Assembly: GCF_000576555.1 (NCBI RefSeq)
Contig: NZ_CP007145.1
Coordinates: 3,742,501-3,806,500, forward strand
Direction: 5' to 3'
Origin: Hymenobacter swuensis DY53
GTDB lineage: Bacteria > Bacteroidota > Bacteroidia > Cytophagales > Hymenobacteraceae
Length of the DNA: 64,000 nucleotides
This document shows positions 42,294 through 56,588 of this stretch, one piece after another (the stretch's first letter is position 1; every line of letters starts with the position of its first letter). A model generated the notes under the pieces. The model saw nothing but the letters and a program-made list of their open reading frames with translations. It ran no database searches and had not been told where the DNA came from. Made by a program: the position numbers and the translations under genes.

Positions 42294-42880
42294 CAGACCA
42301 GCAGTTCAATGGGGTCATCACTGAGGCACCGCAGCTCAAAGGCCTGCAGGTTGGTGAAGCCAGGCAGCGAGGGCCAGCTCACGCCCTTTATCACCAGGTT
42401 CTGAATGCCCAGCAGCCGGAACAGCCGCCCGGCTACCGGCAGCGCCTCCGGCACGTCCACTACCTTTTTCAGGGCCAGCACCTGGGCCTCGGGGTAGCGG
42501 CGCGACACGCGGCCGTCCATCGGGTCCGAGGCCAGGATGCCCTTAATGGTCACGGCGTAGTCGCCGTTGCTGATGTACTCCTTCACCGAGCCGTCGCGGC
42601 CCTGCACGTCGGTGGTGACAATGAGCTTATCCCGGCTCACCTCCACCAGCGGGTCGTTGAGGACGATACCTGGAAAGCCGGGCATGGGCAGAAACTCCAC
42701 CCGGGCAAACACGGGCAGGCCCAGCAGGCCGGTACCCTCCGCGTTGGGAGCCAGGGGCGTACCGTAGCGGTCGGCCTCCCGCTCCTCGGGCGTGGGCTCC
42801 TCGGGCAGCGAGTAGCGCACCAGGGGGGCGTAGCCGAAGGCCTCGGCCGCTAGGGCGCGTAAGTTGAGGTTGTACTGCAT
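42293..42880 (-). CDS. Tail protein, DUF6046-like
   Basis: A 195-residue protein found between tape measure and hub genes; the segment PGFPGIVLNDPLVEVSRDKL and VIKGVSWPSLPGFTNLQAFE fit the DUF6046-type tail protein of Bacteroidota phages as I remember it. It probably joins the tape measure to the baseplate hub. Its start overlaps the tape-measure stop by one base. Confidence 0.5.
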   Translation of the reverse strand: MQYNLNLRALAAEAFGYAPLVRYSLPEEPTPEEREADRYGTPLAPNAEGTGLLGLPVFARVEFLPMPGFPGIVLNDPLVEVSRDKLIVTTDVQGRDGSVKEYISNGDYAVTIKGILASDPMDGRVSRRYPEAQVLALKKVVDVPEALPVAGRLFRLLGIQNLVIKGVSWPSLPGFTNLQAFELRCLSDDPIELLV

Positions 42881-44661
42881 TAGGTCGTCATGGCGTTGGC
42901 GTCGTTGAGCACGCTGAGCAGGGCCGTACGCACGGCTTCCTTCTGCTCCTGCACGCCTTCGCGCACCGAACTGGTGTGAATGGTGGTCTGGCCCAGCTGC
43001 TGAATGTTGATGGTGATGTTGGTCACGCCCCGGCCGGCCCCGGTGGCCCCGCTACCCTTGCCCTTGGCTTTGCTCAGGCCCACGTCGGCCGCCCCGCCCT
43101 TCGTGCCGCCGCCGGCCAGCGCCTGGTCAGGTGTCGGGCCGCCGAAGAATTCGCCCATACTGCCGGCCAGCTTGGTGCCCACGCCCCGGTCGTAGCCCTG
43201 GCGGTACTTCTGGTTGATGCTCATGAGCTGATTCACCCCGCGCGCCAGCTGGGCCGGGTTGAGGGTGAAAGCGCCGGCAATCACGTTGCCCAGCCCCTTG
43301 AACAGCTCCATGGCTCCAAAGGCAAAGCCGTAGATAAAGCCCCGGAAGCCTTCAAACCTGTTCCAGCAGTACATCACGGCCGCACCCAGCGCCACGATGC
43401 CGGCCACGATGAGGCCGATGGGGTTGAGAATCATAGCCCCGTTGAGCAGCAGCTGGGCCGTAGTCCAGAGGCCGGTGACGATGGCCGCCGTGCGCACGTA
43501 GGCCGTGTAGGCCAGCACCGAGGCCACGATGGGCAGCAGCACCGCCCCGATGGTTTTGAAGGCCGTGGCGTGCTCCTGCACGAAGCGGGTGCCGGCGCGC
43601 ACCACTTCCATCAGGCCGCGTAGGGTCACCATGATTTCGGTGACGGCCGGCAGGGCGGCCTCGACGAGCACGGTTTTGGTTTTGAGCCACTCGTTATCGA
43701 AGCGGGCAATCTGGGCCGGCAGCGCGTTCATGGCCTGCGCCAGGCCGGGGCCAAATACCTTGCGCAGCTGGGCCGAGAACTTGGGCAGAAAGTCCTCGGA
43801 CATCAGCTTGCCGTCGTCCATCGTTTTGTTGAGCTGGGCCTGGGTCATGCCCATGGCGTCGGCCGCAATCTTGAAGGCGCCGGGAATCCGCTCCCCGATC
43901 TGGCCCCTCAATTCCTCCGCCTGCACCTTGCCTTTGCTCATGATCTGGCCCAGGGCCAGGTACACGCCCTTGGAATTTTCGCCGTCGAGGCCCATCACGT
44001 TGGTGGCCACGGCCACGTCTTCGAAGATGGTGCGGGTGCCTTCGCCCTGCAGCTTGGTACCCATCATCGAGCCCGTGAGCGTGCGGAAGCCCTCCTTCGA
44101 GGCCAGCAGGCTCACGCCCAGCCGGTCGCTGGTTTGCTCCAGAAACCGCAGGTTCTTGGCTCCCTCGGCCGCCGAGCCGCTGGCAAACTTGATGGCGTTA
44201 TCCATGCCCGTGAGTTGGGCCGTGTCGCGCACCATGTCCATGCCCCCGAAGGCCACCGCCCCGGCCAGCGCCACGCCGCCCAGCAGGCCCATCCCCATAC
44301 CACCGCCACCACCGCCCCGGCGGCCGTGGTTCTCCAGCCGCTCCAGCTTGCGCTCCGTCTCCTCGATGGCGCGGTTGGCCCGGGCAATGTCGCCCAGGTT
44401 CATGGAGATGTTGCGCTGCTGCTTGAGGCTGTTGAGCTTGATTTCGAGGCTGGTGACGGCCGTTACTGCCTGGCTGCTGCTACGAGCAATCTTGCCGTTC
44501 GCGGCGGCCACGGCGCTGCCCATGCCGCCAGCCTTGCTCTGCACGTTCTGCACGGCCCGGCTCACCCGGTTGATGGCCGACTCGCCCACCGCCCCGGCTT
44601 TGCGCAGCGGCGAGGTGAACAGGTCCTTGAGCTGAAGGGTGTAGGAGAGTAAGTTGGCCAT
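42880..44661 (-). CDS. Tail tape measure protein
   Basis: A 593-residue protein; the ATG at 44661 is preferred over a TTG two codons earlier. It has long helical parts at the front (SLKQQRNISMNLGDIARANR), then a tape-measure N-terminal domain (LGQIMSKGKVQAEELRGQIG, then IGERIPGAFKIAADAMGMTQ) and hydrophobic segments (VLLPIVASVLAYTAYVRTA; MILNPIGLIVAGIVALGAAV). It sets tail length and is ejected into the host. At about 590 residues, a tail of moderate length is expected. It lies directly after the frameshifted chaperone genes. Confidence 0.88.
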   Translation of the reverse strand: MANLLSYTLQLKDLFTSPLRKAGAVGESAINRVSRAVQNVQSKAGGMGSAVAAANGKIARSSSQAVTAVTSLEIKLNSLKQQRNISMNLGDIARANRAIEETERKLERLENHGRRGGGGGGMGMGLLGGVALAGAVAFGGMDMVRDTAQLTGMDNAIKFASGSAAEGAKNLRFLEQTSDRLGVSLLASKEGFRTLTGSMMGTKLQGEGTRTIFEDVAVATNVMGLDGENSKGVYLALGQIMSKGKVQAEELRGQIGERIPGAFKIAADAMGMTQAQLNKTMDDGKLMSEDFLPKFSAQLRKVFGPGLAQAMNALPAQIARFDNEWLKTKTVLVEAALPAVTEIMVTLRGLMEVVRAGTRFVQEHATAFKTIGAVLLPIVASVLAYTAYVRTAAIVTGLWTTAQLLLNGAMILNPIGLIVAGIVALGAAVMYCWNRFEGFRGFIYGFAFGAMELFKGLGNVIAGAFTLNPAQLARGVNQLMSINQKYRQGYDRGVGTKLAGSMGEFFGGPTPDQALAGGGTKGGAADVGLSKAKGKGSGATGAGRGVTNITINIQQLGQTTIHTSSVREGVQEQKEAVRTALLSVLNDANAMTT

Positions 44662-44710
44662 GAGCAAGAAAAGCGAAGGGGAGCCGCCGTGGCGGCCGCT
44701 CCCCTTACTG

Positions 44711-45180
44711 CTAGTGTTCTGAGAAAATCCGGTGCAGCCACTGGGCTTGGCCGGCTTTATCCTGCCACACGATTTCCGGAAGGTCCTCTGGGTGCGGAAT
44801 GTGCAGGTAGTAGCTGATCATGGCGTCGGCTTTGCGCAGGCCGTCGTAGCCGGCGCGCTCATCGACGCCGAGCGCCGTTAGTTTTTTTTAAGCTCGCCGT
44901 CGAGCAGCTCCACCAGCTGCACGGCCTGCATCGAGGCCGACATCTTGAACTTCTCGTTTTCGAGGATGGTCTGGTCACCGCCCACAAAGCAGTTTTCGAG
45001 GATGAACTCACCCGCCTCCAGCGGCTTGCTCTGGGCAATGAGCGACATAGCGCGGGCCACCACTACCCGACCGGGCTCCTTCAGGTAGGCCGTGGCCACC
45101 GTTTTGCCGGCCTTGTCCTTCAGCGTCAACGTCTGAATGTCGCCGTGCTCTTTCTTGAGGTTTTCGATGTTTACTTCCAC
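44711..45180 (-). CDS. Tail assembly chaperone, with -1 frameshifted long form
   Basis: The short form (44878-45180, GTG start, 100 residues) ends LLDGELKKN-stop. A slippery A-AAA-AAC lies directly before its stop, and the -1 frame continues from LTALGVDERAGYDGLRKADA through WLHRIFSEH to a stop at 44711, adding about 55 residues. This gene lies between tail tube and tape measure, the standard place of G/GT-type chaperones, which use exactly this mechanism to make two proteins. The chaperones coat the tape measure during tail assembly. The first 11 bases overlap the tube gene. Confidence 0.88.
44855..44887 (-). promoter_or_regulatory. -1 frameshift site of the tail chaperone
   Basis: Read on the minus strand: A AAA AAC (44887-44881), the zero-frame stop TAA at once, a 5-base spacer (TAACG), then a stem GCGCTC (44875-44870), 9-base loop, GAGCGC (44860-44855). 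Confidence 0.85.
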
Positions 45181-53127: not shown

Positions 53128-53541
53128 ATGCCTTTTCTCACTCCCGACGATTACGGCGCCCAGATTCGCCAAGACCAGCTCGACGTGGTGCTGCAGGGCA
53201 ACGCCACGGCTCTCTCCAGCGCCGAGCTGTTTGCCCAGCAGTTTATCGAGAGCTACCTGCGCAGCCGCTACGATGTGGCCACCATCTTCGGCGCTACTGG
53301 GGCGGCCCGCTCGCAGCTCATCATCACTTACCAGGTAGATATTGCCCTGTACACCGTGCACAGTCGCCACGGCCGCGTGCAGATGCCCGAGAAGCGCATC
53401 GACCGCTACGACCAGGCCGTGGAGTGGCTGAAGATGGTGGCCGCCGGCAAGATTTCCGCCGACCTGCCCTTGCTGCCCGTCGATGAGCGCACCGGCGGCT
53501 TTAAATGGGGCTCCGCTCCGCAACAAACCCTCAGCTGGTAA
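53128..53541 (+). CDS. Mu gp36-like protein (DUF1320)
   Basis: 137 residues: MPFLTPDDYGAQIRQDQLDV, SYLRSRYDVATIF and KRIDRYDQAVEWLKMVAAGK fit the DUF1320 head-tail connector family. It has no signal peptide and is 2 bases from the portal. In Mu the gp36 gene follows the major capsid gene; here it precedes the portal, showing rearranged gene order. Confidence 0.8.
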   Translation: MPFLTPDDYGAQIRQDQLDVVLQGNATALSSAELFAQQFIESYLRSRYDVATIFGATGAARSQLIITYQVDIALYTVHSRHGRVQMPEKRIDRYDQAVEWLKMVAAGKISADLPLLPVDERTGGFKWGSAPQQTLSW

Positions 53542-53543
53542 CT

Positions 53544-54797
53544 ATGAACCTGCACGAACGACTCCGCGCCCAAGTAACTGGCACACCCACCACGACGGTA
53601 CACGCCAAAGCTGGCCGCCGCTCCGTGAGCAGCCGGATCCAGGAACACCAGACCGCCCGCCTCCGGGCCGACCTGGGCCACTGGCGCATGGCCCTGTCCA
53701 ATGCCGAGAACAAAGCCTACCCGGACCGCACCGAGCTGTATCGTCTCTACCGGGAGGCCATCATCGACGCGCACCTGACCAGCGTGCTGGAGACGCGCAC
53801 GCTCAACATTCTGTGTCAGCCCTTCAAGGTGGTGAGCATCAAAGGCCAGGTAGAAGACGAGAAACTGACGCGCCAGTTGATGACGCCGTGGTTCTTCGCC
53901 ATCCTGAAAGAAGCCATGGAGGCCATCTACTGGGGCGCGAAAGTCGTCGAGCTGGGCGTGCCCGTGGATGGAGAATTTTCCAGCGTGGAGGCCATCCAAC
54001 CCGAAATGGTCGTGCCCGAGTGGGGCCTGATCCGCAGCGCCCCCGGCAGCACCGGCGGCATCCTGTACCGCGAAGGAGCCGAGGCCCAGTGGTTGGTGCA
54101 GCTGGGCGACCCGAAGGAGCTGGGCCTGCTGCACAAGGCCATTCCCCACGTCATCTGGAAGAAGAACAGCATGCAGGCCTGGGCCGAGTATTGCGACCGG
54201 TTTGCCTTGCCCGTGCGCACGGTGGAAATGGATCTGGGCGACGAGGACCGCGTGGAGGTGGAAAACATGCTCCGCAACATGGGCCGGGCCGCCTACGCCA
54301 TCCTGCCCCCGGGCGCCAGCAACTTCACCTACCACACACCGCAGAACTTTCAGCAGGGCGTGTTTTCAGGCATGATTGACTACCCCAACGCCGAGCTGAG
54401 TAAGCTGGTGCTGGGCCAGACCATGACCACCGACAACGGCAGCAGCCGCAGCCAGGCCGAGGTACACGAGCGGGTGAGCGAGAAGTACACCAAGGCCGAC
54501 AAGATGTACCTGCGCAACCTGGTGATGTGGGAGCTCTGGGACCGGCTGCTGCTGCACGGCTACCCCGTGGCGGGCTTCGAGTTCAAGTGGGACGAGAGCG
54601 AGAACCTGGGCAAGAAAGAGCAGTGGGACATCGTGCAGGGTATCATGCAGCACTCGGGCTACCGGGTGCCAGCTAAGTACATCCTTGACACGTTCGGCGT
54701 GGAGGTGGAAGAAAAGCCCGAGCCGGAAGTGGTACCAACTCCGGGGGCCATCGGTACCAACCCAGCTGCGAAGCCAGCCCCCGCGCCGGGAAAGTAA
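53544..54797 (+). CDS. Portal protein, Mu gp29-like (DUF935)
   Basis: 417 residues from ATG 53544 (MNLHERLRAQVTGTPTTTVH). The DUF935 core has SVLETRTLNILCQPFKVVSI, FFAILKEAMEAIYWGAKVVE and LSKLVLGQTMTTDNGSSRSQ. The C-terminal tail is Pro/Ala-rich (EPEVVPTPGAIGTNPAAKPA) and ends GK-stop on a slippery GGGAAAG. Portal dodecamers form the DNA entry pore. The next gene (MuF) has no good start of its own in the same frame and lies in the -1 frame, so part of the portal is probably made as a long fusion. Confidence 0.9.
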   Translation: MNLHERLRAQVTGTPTTTVHAKAGRRSVSSRIQEHQTARLRADLGHWRMALSNAENKAYPDRTELYRLYREAIIDAHLTSVLETRTLNILCQPFKVVSIKGQVEDEKLTRQLMTPWFFAILKEAMEAIYWGAKVVELGVPVDGEFSSVEAIQPEMVVPEWGLIRSAPGSTGGILYREGAEAQWLVQLGDPKELGLLHKAIPHVIWKKNSMQAWAEYCDRFALPVRTVEMDLGDEDRVEVENMLRNMGRAAYAILPPGASNFTYHTPQNFQQGVFSGMIDYPNAELSKLVLGQTMTTDNGSSRSQAEVHERVSEKYTKADKMYLRNLVMWELWDRLLLHGYPVAGFEFKWDESENLGKKEQWDIVQGIMQHSGYRVPAKYILDTFGVEVEEKPEPEVVPTPGAIGTNPAAKPAPAPGK

Positions 54798-54832
54798 TCG
54801 GCGCGGGCGTCTCTGCGCTGTACGCCCGCGCC
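54788..54832 (+). promoter_or_regulatory. Predicted -1 frameshift signal at the portal stop
   Basis: Slippery G GGA AAG (54788-54794), zero-frame stop TAA next, 5-base spacer, then a perfect 10-bp stem GGCGCGGGCG (54800-54809), 13-base loop, CGCCCGCGCC (54823-54832). GGGAAAG is the slippery sequence of lambda G-T. The -1 frame leads directly into the MuF-like gene. Confidence 0.8.
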
Positions 54833-55615
54833 TGCTGTGCTGAGCACGGCCCCGTTACCGATGCGCGCAACGCCACCCCCGACGAGGAGGCCACCCGCCG
54901 GCTACTTGCCGAGTTCCTGACCCTGGCCCGCCAGGTGCATCAGGCCCAGGCCGCCGGCGGCGTGCAGCTGGGCCTGTTCACGGCTACCAGCAACCGCCTG
55001 CTACGCGCCGTGGAGGTAGGCTACGGGCGAAGCGACGAGAAGCTGCTGCGCTACATGCGCGAAAACATCAGCTTCTTTTCCGCTGCCAAAACCCAGCACC
55101 AGGCCGTGGAGCTGAGCGGGCTGCTGCTCGATGAGCAGGGCCAGCGAAAGCCCTGGCGGGCGTTCCGTAACGACGCCCTGCAGGTGCATGAGCTCTACAA
55201 TGTGCGCTGGCTCAAAACCGAGTACGAGCACGCCGTGGCCAGCGCCCAGATGGCGGCCAAGTGGGAAGAGTTCGAGGAGTCGCCTTTCCTGCTCCAGTAC
55301 GAGACGGTAGGCGACAGCCGGGTGCGGCCGGAGCACCGCGCCTGGGACGGTATCACGTTGCCAGCCGACCATCCGTGGTGGCAGACGCACTACCCGCCCA
55401 ACGACTGGTTATGCCGATGCACTGCCATCGGGGCAGCGCCAGACGCCCGGCCCACACCTGCTAGCATCCTGCCGGCGCTGCCGGAGCCCGATGCCGGCTT
55501 CAGCGGCAACGTGGGCCAAACCGGTGTCATTTTCCCCTTAGCACACCCCTACTTTCTTAGTCTTACTGCCAGTGAGCAAAATGCACTGCAAACGCTTGCT
55601 AATACGACTTCATAA
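54794..55615 (+). CDS. MuF-like head morphogenesis protein, read in -1 frame after the portal
   Basis: Open from the frameshift site: VIGAGVSALYARACCAEHGP, then TRRLLAEFLTLARQVHQAQA. The C-terminus has the MuF pattern: GDSRVRPEHRAWDGITLPAD, HPWW...PPNDWLCRCTAIG. No ATG, GTG or TTG lies in frame before GTG 54935, which would cut off the conserved front. So it is probably translated as a 690-residue portal-MuF fusion by -1 frameshift; a CTG start at 54818 is an alternative. MuF proteins are minor head proteins, ejected or bound to the portal. Confidence 0.82.
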   Translation, partial: VIGAGVSALYARACCAEHGPVTDARNATPDEEATRRLLAEFLTLARQVHQAQAAGGVQLGLFTATSNRLLRAVEVGYGRSDEKLLRYMRENISFFSAAKTQHQAVELSGLLLDEQGQRKPWRAFRNDALQVHELYNVRWLKTEYEHAVASAQMAAKWEEFEESPFLLQYETVGDSRVRPEHRAWDGITLPADHPWWQTHYPPNDWLCRCTAIGAAPDARPTPASILPALPEPDAGFSGNVGQTGVIFPLAHPYFLSLTASEQNALQTLANTTS

Positions 55616-55784
55616 TAGAAATAAGAAAGTAAGTACCTGTACGGAGGAAGCATCAGTGTTAGTACGCATAGATAACATTCACTATATTTTATATAATTGC
55701 CCTGAAACAAACATCCAGCCGTGAGGCCTTTTGGGAAACTGCATAATACAAAGTCCCTTCTTTTATACAAATAACCCAACGTTC

Positions 55785-56588
55785 ATGAAAAAGCTCTTAC
55801 TAACTGGCTTCTTAATCTGCATTGCCTACGCGCATGCCTCTGCTCAAACTATTCACCAGTTGAATAACAGATTTGACAACACAGTATTTGACAAATTGCA
55901 TAAAAAAGGCAGTGATGGTAAATACCCTAGCTCCTATAAAACCATTGCCACCTCTTTAAAAGGGTATGTGACAAAATTATCAGATGATAAGGACACCCTA
56001 TTCATCAAGTTGTGGAATATAACATCCCCTGAGCACAAAGGAAGTGATGCTATAATTAATCAGGATGACAACGGGGCCACATTTGCGTACAAGATCAAGT
56101 GGCAGCAAGGAACCTACTTGGATATCCCTTTCTCTGCCAAAGCATTTGTAGCTACAAGCATTCCGTTTAGATACCGTCTCAAGAAAAACTCGGATTTAGA
56201 GGCCGATTTTCTCAATGTAGGGGTTAGCTATTTCAACTTAGCCGGAAAAACCAGATTCTATAAGCACGAGCAGATTGATACTCGGCAACGTTATGTAGGA
56301 TGGGGACCTTTCGTTGCTTTTGGTCAGCAGAAAATTGATAGTACCAATACCGATGGCCGAGTAAAGAGCGAGAAGCAAGTAGCCGTATTGAGTTACGGAA
56401 TCAATGGTGTGGCATCAATAAATAACTTTAGCCTCATCCTTGCTTTAGGCTTCGACAACGCAATAGGAAGCAACGCCAAATATTGGGAAGAGAATAATTT
56501 CAGAGGTGGCATTAAGCCTTGGATAGGCTTTGGTTTTGGGCTCAAACTTGTTGACTTAGAGATTAAGGATACGAATGATGGCAAATAA
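55785..56588 (+). CDS. AT-rich secreted protein (cargo)
   Basis: 267 residues from ATG 55785, which begins the signal peptide MKKLLLTGFLICIAYAHASA. The DNA is visibly AT-richer than the phage genes on both sides. The protein may be an outer-membrane beta-barrel: alternating strands (FLNVGVSYFNLAGKTRFY, NNFSLILALGFDNAIGS) and a Gly/aromatic end (IKPWIGFGFGLKLVDLEI). I know no family. It interrupts the MuF/virion morphogenesis gene pair and is likely expressed from its own promoter in the AT-rich 55616-55784 gap, which fits a lysogenic-conversion gene. Confidence 0.7.
   Translation: MKKLLLTGFLICIAYAHASAQTIHQLNNRFDNTVFDKLHKKGSDGKYPSSYKTIATSLKGYVTKLSDDKDTLFIKLWNITSPEHKGSDAIINQDDNGATFAYKIKWQQGTYLDIPFSAKAFVATSIPFRYRLKKNSDLEADFLNVGVSYFNLAGKTRFYKHEQIDTRQRYVGWGPFVAFGQQKIDSTNTDGRVKSEKQVAVLSYGINGVASINNFSLILALGFDNAIGSNAKYWEENNFRGGIKPWIGFGFGLKLVDLEIKDTNDGK

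Follow-up and report, generated by a model that had tools for sequence, protein, structure and literature searches.

A predicted -1 ribosomal frameshift signal linking portal and MuF in a Mu-like Hymenobacter prophage and its recurrence in related phages

How do ribosomes reach the MuF gene of this prophage, which lies behind the portal gene in the -1 frame and has no ATG, GTG or TTG in its conserved front? We addressed this question in a 64-kb stretch of Hymenobacter DNA (the window), where the head module is Mu-like (small and large terminase, gp36-like, portal, MuF and tail completion), a ClpP-like protease and the capsid are on the other strand, and the tail genes are those of a contractile tail (sheath, tape measure and baseplate hub). 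An earlier note on this DNA had proposed that a -1 ribosomal frameshift fuses the portal and MuF proteins. From comparisons of sequences, and with a probability of about 0.9, we interpret positions 54788-54832, where portal and MuF meet in this contractile-tailed Mu-like prophage, as a signal for programmed -1 ribosomal frameshifting at which a minority of ribosomes would slip to produce portal-MuF.

Table 1. Features discussed in the text, with their positions in the window.
Feature	Position	Strand	Basis or remark
Slippery heptamer G_GGA_AAG (GGGAAAG)	54788-54794	+	Portal frame, phase fit for a -1 slip; sequence
Portal stop TAA	54795-54797	+	Inside the 5-nt spacer TAATC, 54795-54799
Stem, 5' arm GGCGCGGGCGT	54800-54810	+	Fold, relatives
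Stem, 3' arm ACGCCCGCGCC	54822-54832	+	Fold, relatives
Portal ORF, Mu gp29-type, frame-zero product	53505-54797	+	PF06074, phrog_113, alignment
MuF region reached via the -1 shift, 273 residues beginning VIGAGVSALYAR	54794-55615	+	PF04233, pN/pS
First ATG/GTG/TTG of the MuF frame past the slip site: GTG	54935-54937	+	Downstream of the conserved ALYARAC
Second candidate -1 frameshift, ORF ending ...GELKKN	44878-45180	-	A_AAA_AAC at 44887 directly before TAA, then GGCGC..GCGCC
ORF between MuF and the tail-completion gene	55731-56588	+	Signal-peptide-like start MKKLLLTGFLICIAYAHASAQ, lower-GC stretch

The portal ORF matches the Mu-like portal family PF06074 (E 2.4e-71, 241.2 bits, profile positions 1-336 of 336), the portal family phrog_113, and one distinct sequence in the PDB (9khx, also 9knu). 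It has two candidate starts, ATG 53505 (430 aa) and ATG 53544 (417 aa), and the relatives suggest the second. Its frame ends in ...CCG GGA AAG TAA, and after a -1 slip the frame reads VIGAGVSALYARACCAEHG... as far as 55615. This second frame is open from 54689 and contains the MuF domain PF04233 (E 1.9e-15, 58 bits against a cut-off of 29.6, profile positions 35-112 of 112), so the -1 frame does lead into MuF as proposed; MuF has no match in the PDB, and its gene follows the portal gene. The claim that the conserved front of MuF lacks a start codon of its own likewise holds. The fusion of 690 residues predicted in the earlier note fits the start at ATG 53544 (417 + 273 aa) and becomes 703 residues from ATG 53505. 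For mass spectrometry the note had proposed the junction peptide APGKVIGAG, which is unsuited to trypsin digests because trypsin would cleave it at the lysine of the junction; a better target is VIGAGVSALYAR, whose first residue follows the lysine of the slip site. The ORF that follows MuF has no Pfam or PHROG match and is possibly a cargo gene.

The heptamer stands directly before the portal stop with a five-base spacer, as had been described. The stem, which had been given as a perfect 10-bp GC helix, does contain ten G-C pairs, but with a closing U-A pair its full length is 11 bp (54800-54810 with 54822-54832). The 71 nt from 54780 to 54850 have a folding energy of -40 kcal/mol, compared with -31.25 +/- 3.1 for shuffled sequences (z -2.82). 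There are 278 X_XXY_YYZ sites (Y = A/T) in the window, counting both strands and any frame, and 19 of them have a stem with a score of at least 18 placed 3-9 nt downstream; the heptamer at 54788 ranks first of all 278 by its downstream stem, with a score of 32, followed by sites with 31 and 30. The features expected of a -1 frameshift site are thus present together: an X_XXY_YYZ heptamer in the zero frame, a stem after 5 nt, an open coding -1 frame, and conservation.

Frameshifting in tailed phages is best known from the tail chaperones, and lambda G-T uses the same heptamer as the window site; this type of -1 frameshift was reportedly described by Xu, Hendrix and Duda in 2004. Phages A2 and PSA are said to have frameshifted head or structural proteins, and there too the frameshift makes a second form of a virion protein; the protein is presumably not the portal, and we take it that no second domain is added from a neighbouring MuF gene. 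The lambda G/G-T-type frameshift is cited in passages of PMC6316719, PMC7911831 and PMC3483164, among which are given the heptamers UUUUUUC for SPP1 17.5 (PMC6316719) and G GGA AAT for Hardycor1 (PMC7911831). The window site resembles these in the -1 slip on an X_XXY_YYZ heptamer of similar kind, in a phage structural gene and with a minor, C-terminally extended product, but it differs in the genes involved, which are portal and MuF of the head module. We rejected the 54788 site as a tail-chaperone site on the grounds that its genes are portal and MuF and that the tape measure gene is on the other strand (42880-44667). Just upstream of that tape measure gene, the site at 44887 has a -1 frame that continues KKLTALGVDERAGYDGLRKADA..., and it is a candidate that fits what would be expected of a tail-chaperone pair.

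Relatives were collected from viral contigs and from Hymenobacter genomes by scans with the portal protein and its alignment, one of which, over genome contigs, yielded 5 loci; several entries in the set are the same contig twice, and the portals of L002 and L012 are identical to that of the window. We aligned the window with 9 close relatives whose portals are 68-87% identical to it, leaving out L011, which has the same values as L006. All nine have the same portal/MuF -1 arrangement. The heptamer region CCGGGAAAG is invariant in 10/10 sequences, and 95.5% of the stem cells are paired, compared with 28-60% when the stem is slid by 1-3 columns, so that the conservation of heptamer and stem for which the earlier note had suggested a check is seen in these relatives. 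The pair columns 38/56 are unpaired in four of the ten sequences and columns 31/63 in one. The portal stop directly follows the heptamer in 4/10 sequences and lies 15 nt further on in 6/10; since the stop occupies two places while the heptamer is fixed, heptamer and stem appear to be kept independently of the stop. In the MuF ORFs of L006, L007 and L010 the C-terminus is about 220 residues longer than in the window, and in the two examined (L006 and L010) this extension has no Pfam match.

All internal gaps in the alignment are multiples of three, and between the stem and GTG 54935 pN/pS is 0.63 in the MuF frame, compared with 1.01 and 1.24 in the other two. The value of 0.63 represents only moderate constraint; judged from these substitution patterns, the -1 frame is coding and under protein constraint ahead of any start codon. 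The stem arms encode the conserved residues GA..YARAC, and part of the stem conservation is therefore at the protein level. None of the 11 stem pairs has a change on both sides among these ten close sequences, and seven are invariant; the structural argument hence rests on the stems of distant relatives and on nearly frozen synonymous sites, as the stem codons GCG, TAC, GCC, CGC and GCC scarcely vary at synonymous positions in the 10 sequences while the loop leucine codon takes four forms.

To place the site in a wider family, we sought the Mu portal domain in genome samples of the host family (20 of 200 genomes matched), order (31 of 390) and phylum (44 of 395) and of three further families (25 of 195, 4 of 150 and 7 of 86), all of these being overlapping sets, and the window MuF in 120 genomes of the host genus (18 matched). 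The locus set comprises part of the matched places, some taken by coordinates, together with 13 named or faecal phage records. It contains 186 portal ORFs, reduced to 137 at 95% identity of the portal domain. MuF overlaps the portal ORF in the -1 frame in 56 of the 137, is fused to it as a single ORF in 26, overlaps in +1 in 7 and follows after a gap in 7; the remaining 41 have no detected MuF.

Of the 56 -1 overlaps, 49 contain an in-frame heptamer past the portal domain, compared with 8.4 expected from codon shuffling and 2.0 from same-length stretches of the same portal ORFs. In the seven overlaps that lack one, a start codon lies no more than 7 nt from the stop, as is usual where genes simply overlap. 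Where a locus has several heptamers the one with the best stem was taken, a choice that favours the stem; on this basis the 49 loci carry TTTTTTC (21), GGGAAAG (12), AAAAAAA (4), AAATTTT (4), AAAAAAG (3), TTTAAAA (3), AAAAAAT (1) and CCCTTTT (1), and stems are significant at p 0.05 in 39/49 against shuffles and in 39/49 against neighbouring positions. The stem score reaches 18, a threshold set after the stems had been seen, in 37 or 38 of the 49; the 11 or 12 loci below it include phage Peternella_1, L081 and most of the group with A runs. A table of paired positions in the T_TTT_TTC stems was not used for covariation, these stems having been picked because they pair. The 49 loci span at least seven family codes (f1, f11, f18, f24, f26, f30 and f37). 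Relatives lacking both heptamer and stem had been named in the earlier note as what would speak against a frameshift; the outcome favours one, with distant relatives keeping the design with other heptamers and unrelated stems. The fusion by frameshift is thus supported, and the signal is not peculiar to this prophage, since the design recurs across Bacteroidota phages.

All classes of locus were also scanned from the end of the portal domain onward, for an in-frame heptamer and for one with a stem score of at least 18. Heptamer and strong stem are found, respectively, in 49/49 and 38/49 of the -1 overlaps with a heptamer in the overlap (38 of all 56) and in 25/26 and 14/26 of the fused ORFs, against 3/7 and 0/7 of the other -1 overlaps, 2/7 and 0/7 of the +1 overlaps, 4/7 and 0/7 of the gap pairs, and 8/41 and 1/41 of the portals with no detected MuF. 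The one strong stem in the last class is that of L153, whose contig ends 169 nt past the portal. Of the 21 pairs counted as separate, 9 thus have a heptamer after the portal domain with a weak stem or none. At a stem score of 22 the counts are 20/49 of the heptamer -1 overlaps (20/56 overall), 8/26 of the fused ORFs, and 0 in the other classes.

The fused ORFs have in-frame heptamers in the linker between portal and MuF in 25/26 cases, where 8.3 are expected by codon shuffle, and strong in-frame elements are concentrated there: 15 in 8,580 nt of linker (14 ORFs), compared with 1 in 26,397 nt of portal and 1 in 23,817 nt of MuF sequence. A -1 slip in such a linker would end translation, and portal without MuF would therefore be released. 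In L019, L035, L036 and L037, each with an 11-12-bp stem, the slip leads to a stop after one codon (GTC TAA, TAC TAA, TAC TAA and TCC TGA). The portal domains of L035-L037 are 59-73% identical, and L036 and L037 differ on both sides in two stem pairs. Apart from the four loci with a one-codon distance, one of the 14 fused loci that carry the element has its -1 stop after 4 codons, and the remaining 9 reach theirs only at distances of at least 12 codons; those 9 do no better in this respect than random positions in the linker, where the median distance is 10 codons and 13% have a stop within one codon. This arrangement resembles the dnaX tau/gamma frameshift, in which frame zero is long and the -1 shift ends the product. 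The window is the reverse, with a short frame zero ending at TAA and a long -1 frame, and is not of the dnaX type. Both arrangements, with a short and with a long zero frame, are thus found in the sequences of one portal family.

Several of the fused ORFs fit this reversed reading less well. A strong element is absent from 12/26, and L021, L025, L029 and L097 keep GGGAAAG with weak stems (p >= 0.18); these heptamers are either relics or plain codon conservation, and they count against the reversed reading. Seven strong out-of-phase sites are present in fused linkers, six of which share an A or T run with an in-frame site. In L027, L047, L051, L116 and L119 the slippery run is longer by one or more bases, with an out-of-phase heptamer in the same run, and the fusion may have come about through one extra base or a read error. 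A further single-ORF fusion, L202, is outside the counts. In L046 portal and MuF are in the same frame with a stop between them and the first start codon 147 nt past that stop, reflecting either stop read-through or a decayed fusion.

We built a tree of the 96 portal domains from heptamer (49), fused (26) and separate (21) loci by a quick method and without inferring a root; on it, the heptamer and fused states by themselves require no fewer than 13 changes. DNA alignments of neighbours indicate that the element persists across overlapping and fused states; L022 (-1 overlap, AAAAAAG) and L027 (fused, AAAAAAA), for example, have stems of 12 and 11 bp and portal domains that are 74% identical. 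Because about half of the single-ORF relatives carry the element, where a slip would release a portal lacking MuF, the conserved trait is probably the output of two products. We consider it somewhat likelier true than false that an RNA element common to the Mu-like phages of Bacteroidota sets the proportion of portal to portal-MuF, that selection keeps the two products and not the frame, and that there have been repeated switches between a short product in frame zero with fusion by slipping and a fusion in frame zero with a short product by slipping, with heptamer and stem kept throughout.

We also looked at named phages, in 13 records and one single-ORF record, with TCUEAP3 and BS-TP1 standing outside the counts above. 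Stems with a score of at least 18 follow the heptamer in Elizabethkingia phage TCUEAP3 (TTTTTTC, 8-bp stem), in Bacteroides phage BS-TP1 (AAATTTT, 10-bp stem), and in Bacteroides phages BKO1-TP4 and jmh72 (TTTTTTC, 6-bp stem), the latter two also having an ATG near the stop. Phages fF4 and Peternella_1 have a heptamer with a weak stem or none; FPSV-S1 has no heptamer and lotta8-2 one with a weak stem, and in both MuF has its own ATG. A heptamer is absent from the last 180 nt (0/5) in Mu-like phages from other phyla (Vibrio, Alteromonadaceae, Shewanella, Ochrobactrum and Oscillospiraceae), and all five have a MuF start annotated within 6 nt of the portal stop. Annotated MuF starts lie 101, 11, 278 and 116 nt past the portal stop in L111, L190, L199 and L201, in all of which the MuF frame is already open 25-34 nt before that stop; this suggests that MuF has been annotated too short in Peternella_1 (+101), BS-TP1 (+116) and TCUEAP3 (+278 nt). 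In the single-ORF Porphyromonas phages 013a and 007a, the linker contains TTTTTTC followed by an 8-bp stem. In another Porphyromonas phage (L113, 3034-5595) a single ORF comprises portal, MuF and a PBECR2 nuclease-like domain, and its portal-MuF linker also carries TTTTTTC and an 8-bp stem.

An alternative explanation is that ribosomes reinitiate after terminating at the portal stop and translate MuF separately from an unusual start such as ATC 54797 or GTG 54935, with heptamer and stem being coincidental or aiding reinitiation. Many ordinary pairs seem to work this way, since 16 of the 21 pairs without a heptamer in an overlap have a start codon near the portal stop (ATG in 15), and 10 of the 49 heptamer loci have one between -40 and +12 of that stop (ATG in 3, a hankyphage relative among them), so that a separate MuF could be made there as well. 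Against this, the second codon past the slip site is ATC, CCA, CGC, GTC, GCC, ATA, TAC or TTT in the 10 aligned sequences, and there is thus no conserved start at the position of ATC 54797; residues upstream of GTG 54935 are conserved; and 8 of the 49 loci have no ATG, GTG or TTG at all between slip site and MuF domain. Moreover, the heptamer stays in place when the portal stop shifts by 15 nt, and the element recurs in 14/26 single-ORF fusions. We regard a separate MuF start as the whole explanation as very unlikely. Somewhat less likely still is that stem and heptamer form a regulatory or transcription element (an attenuator or processing site) or are a by-product of GC-rich codons. The protein-level part of the stem conservation, noted above for GA..YARAC, would agree with this, but the heptamers are in the right phase in 49/56 loci, with 19 and 11 in the other two phases of the same stretches; eight different heptamers occupy the shared position, with a spacer of 5 or 6 nt in 31/49; strong in-frame elements of single ORFs are in the linker and hardly elsewhere (2 in 50,214 nt); and Rfam gave no match in the 5 loci scanned.

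For relatives with long A or T runs, it is conceivable with a similarly low probability that RNA polymerase slippage generates the second product, or that the gene only looks fused or split because a homopolymer was misread. L089, L085, L130-L133, L111 and L190 have long A runs, mostly with no strong stem, and the lengthened runs of the five fused ORFs named above point the same way. Polymerase slippage is nonetheless inapplicable to the window, with its GGGAAAG, and to other loci with AAATTTT or GGGAAAG, and the protein outcome would be the same. The least probable reading, to which we give hardly any weight, is that the locus, being in a prophage, is simply a gene broken by a frameshift mutation; one -1 locus, L026, does sit among single-ORF relatives with one base missing in the linker alignment. 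The arrangement is nevertheless common to all 9 close relatives, the MuF frame is under constraint, and the phage records TCUEAP3 and BS-TP1 have the same arrangement.

We therefore return to programmed frameshifting and how it would operate. Most ribosomes would terminate at TAA 54795 to give portal, and a fraction, held back by the stem 5 nt downstream, would slip on G_GGA_AAG to give portal-MuF (690 or 703 aa). A portal ring has 12 subunits, and the fusion would enter it as a minor subunit, so that the portal vertex would carry a few MuF domains, constant in number, within the head; being covalently attached, MuF would need no docking step to get there. With 10-20% fusion in a ring of 12, about one to two MuF domains would be placed. 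What the sequences show is the signal with its conservation, a coding -1 frame and the recurrence of the design; that ribosomes slip in vivo, how often they do so, and that the fusion joins the ring and controls MuF copy number, we infer.

Joining of the two proteins has precedent. Single-gene portal-MuF fusions are described for Microbacterium phages (PMC7302621), likewise giving one polypeptide, although the relevant passages present them as gene fusions and mention no frameshift signal at the junction. In SPP1 gp7 and other MuF proteins the gene directly follows the portal gene, but passages of the same sources describe MuF there as a separate protein bound to the portal (PMC5576092, PMC6316719). 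The authors of PRFect report VIP2 and MuF-like genes among their predicted sites, as these occur as a single fusion gene, in a passage where the word "portal" is absent (PMC10885494). Our literature search, which covered open-licence papers and is thus weak evidence of absence, found no recognisable report of a portal/MuF frameshift.

A widespread signal of this kind in portal genes would mean that the DNA-entry ring is built from two covalently different subunits in a ratio set by translation. It would account for the placing of an inner head protein, which in L113 is joined to a nuclease-like domain, at a single vertex in just a few copies. Single-ORF relatives, with their reversed arrangement, would provide a natural experiment on what selection preserves, and if it is indeed the two products that are kept, the heads of these phages would in general be built with rings that mix plain and MuF-bearing portal subunits.
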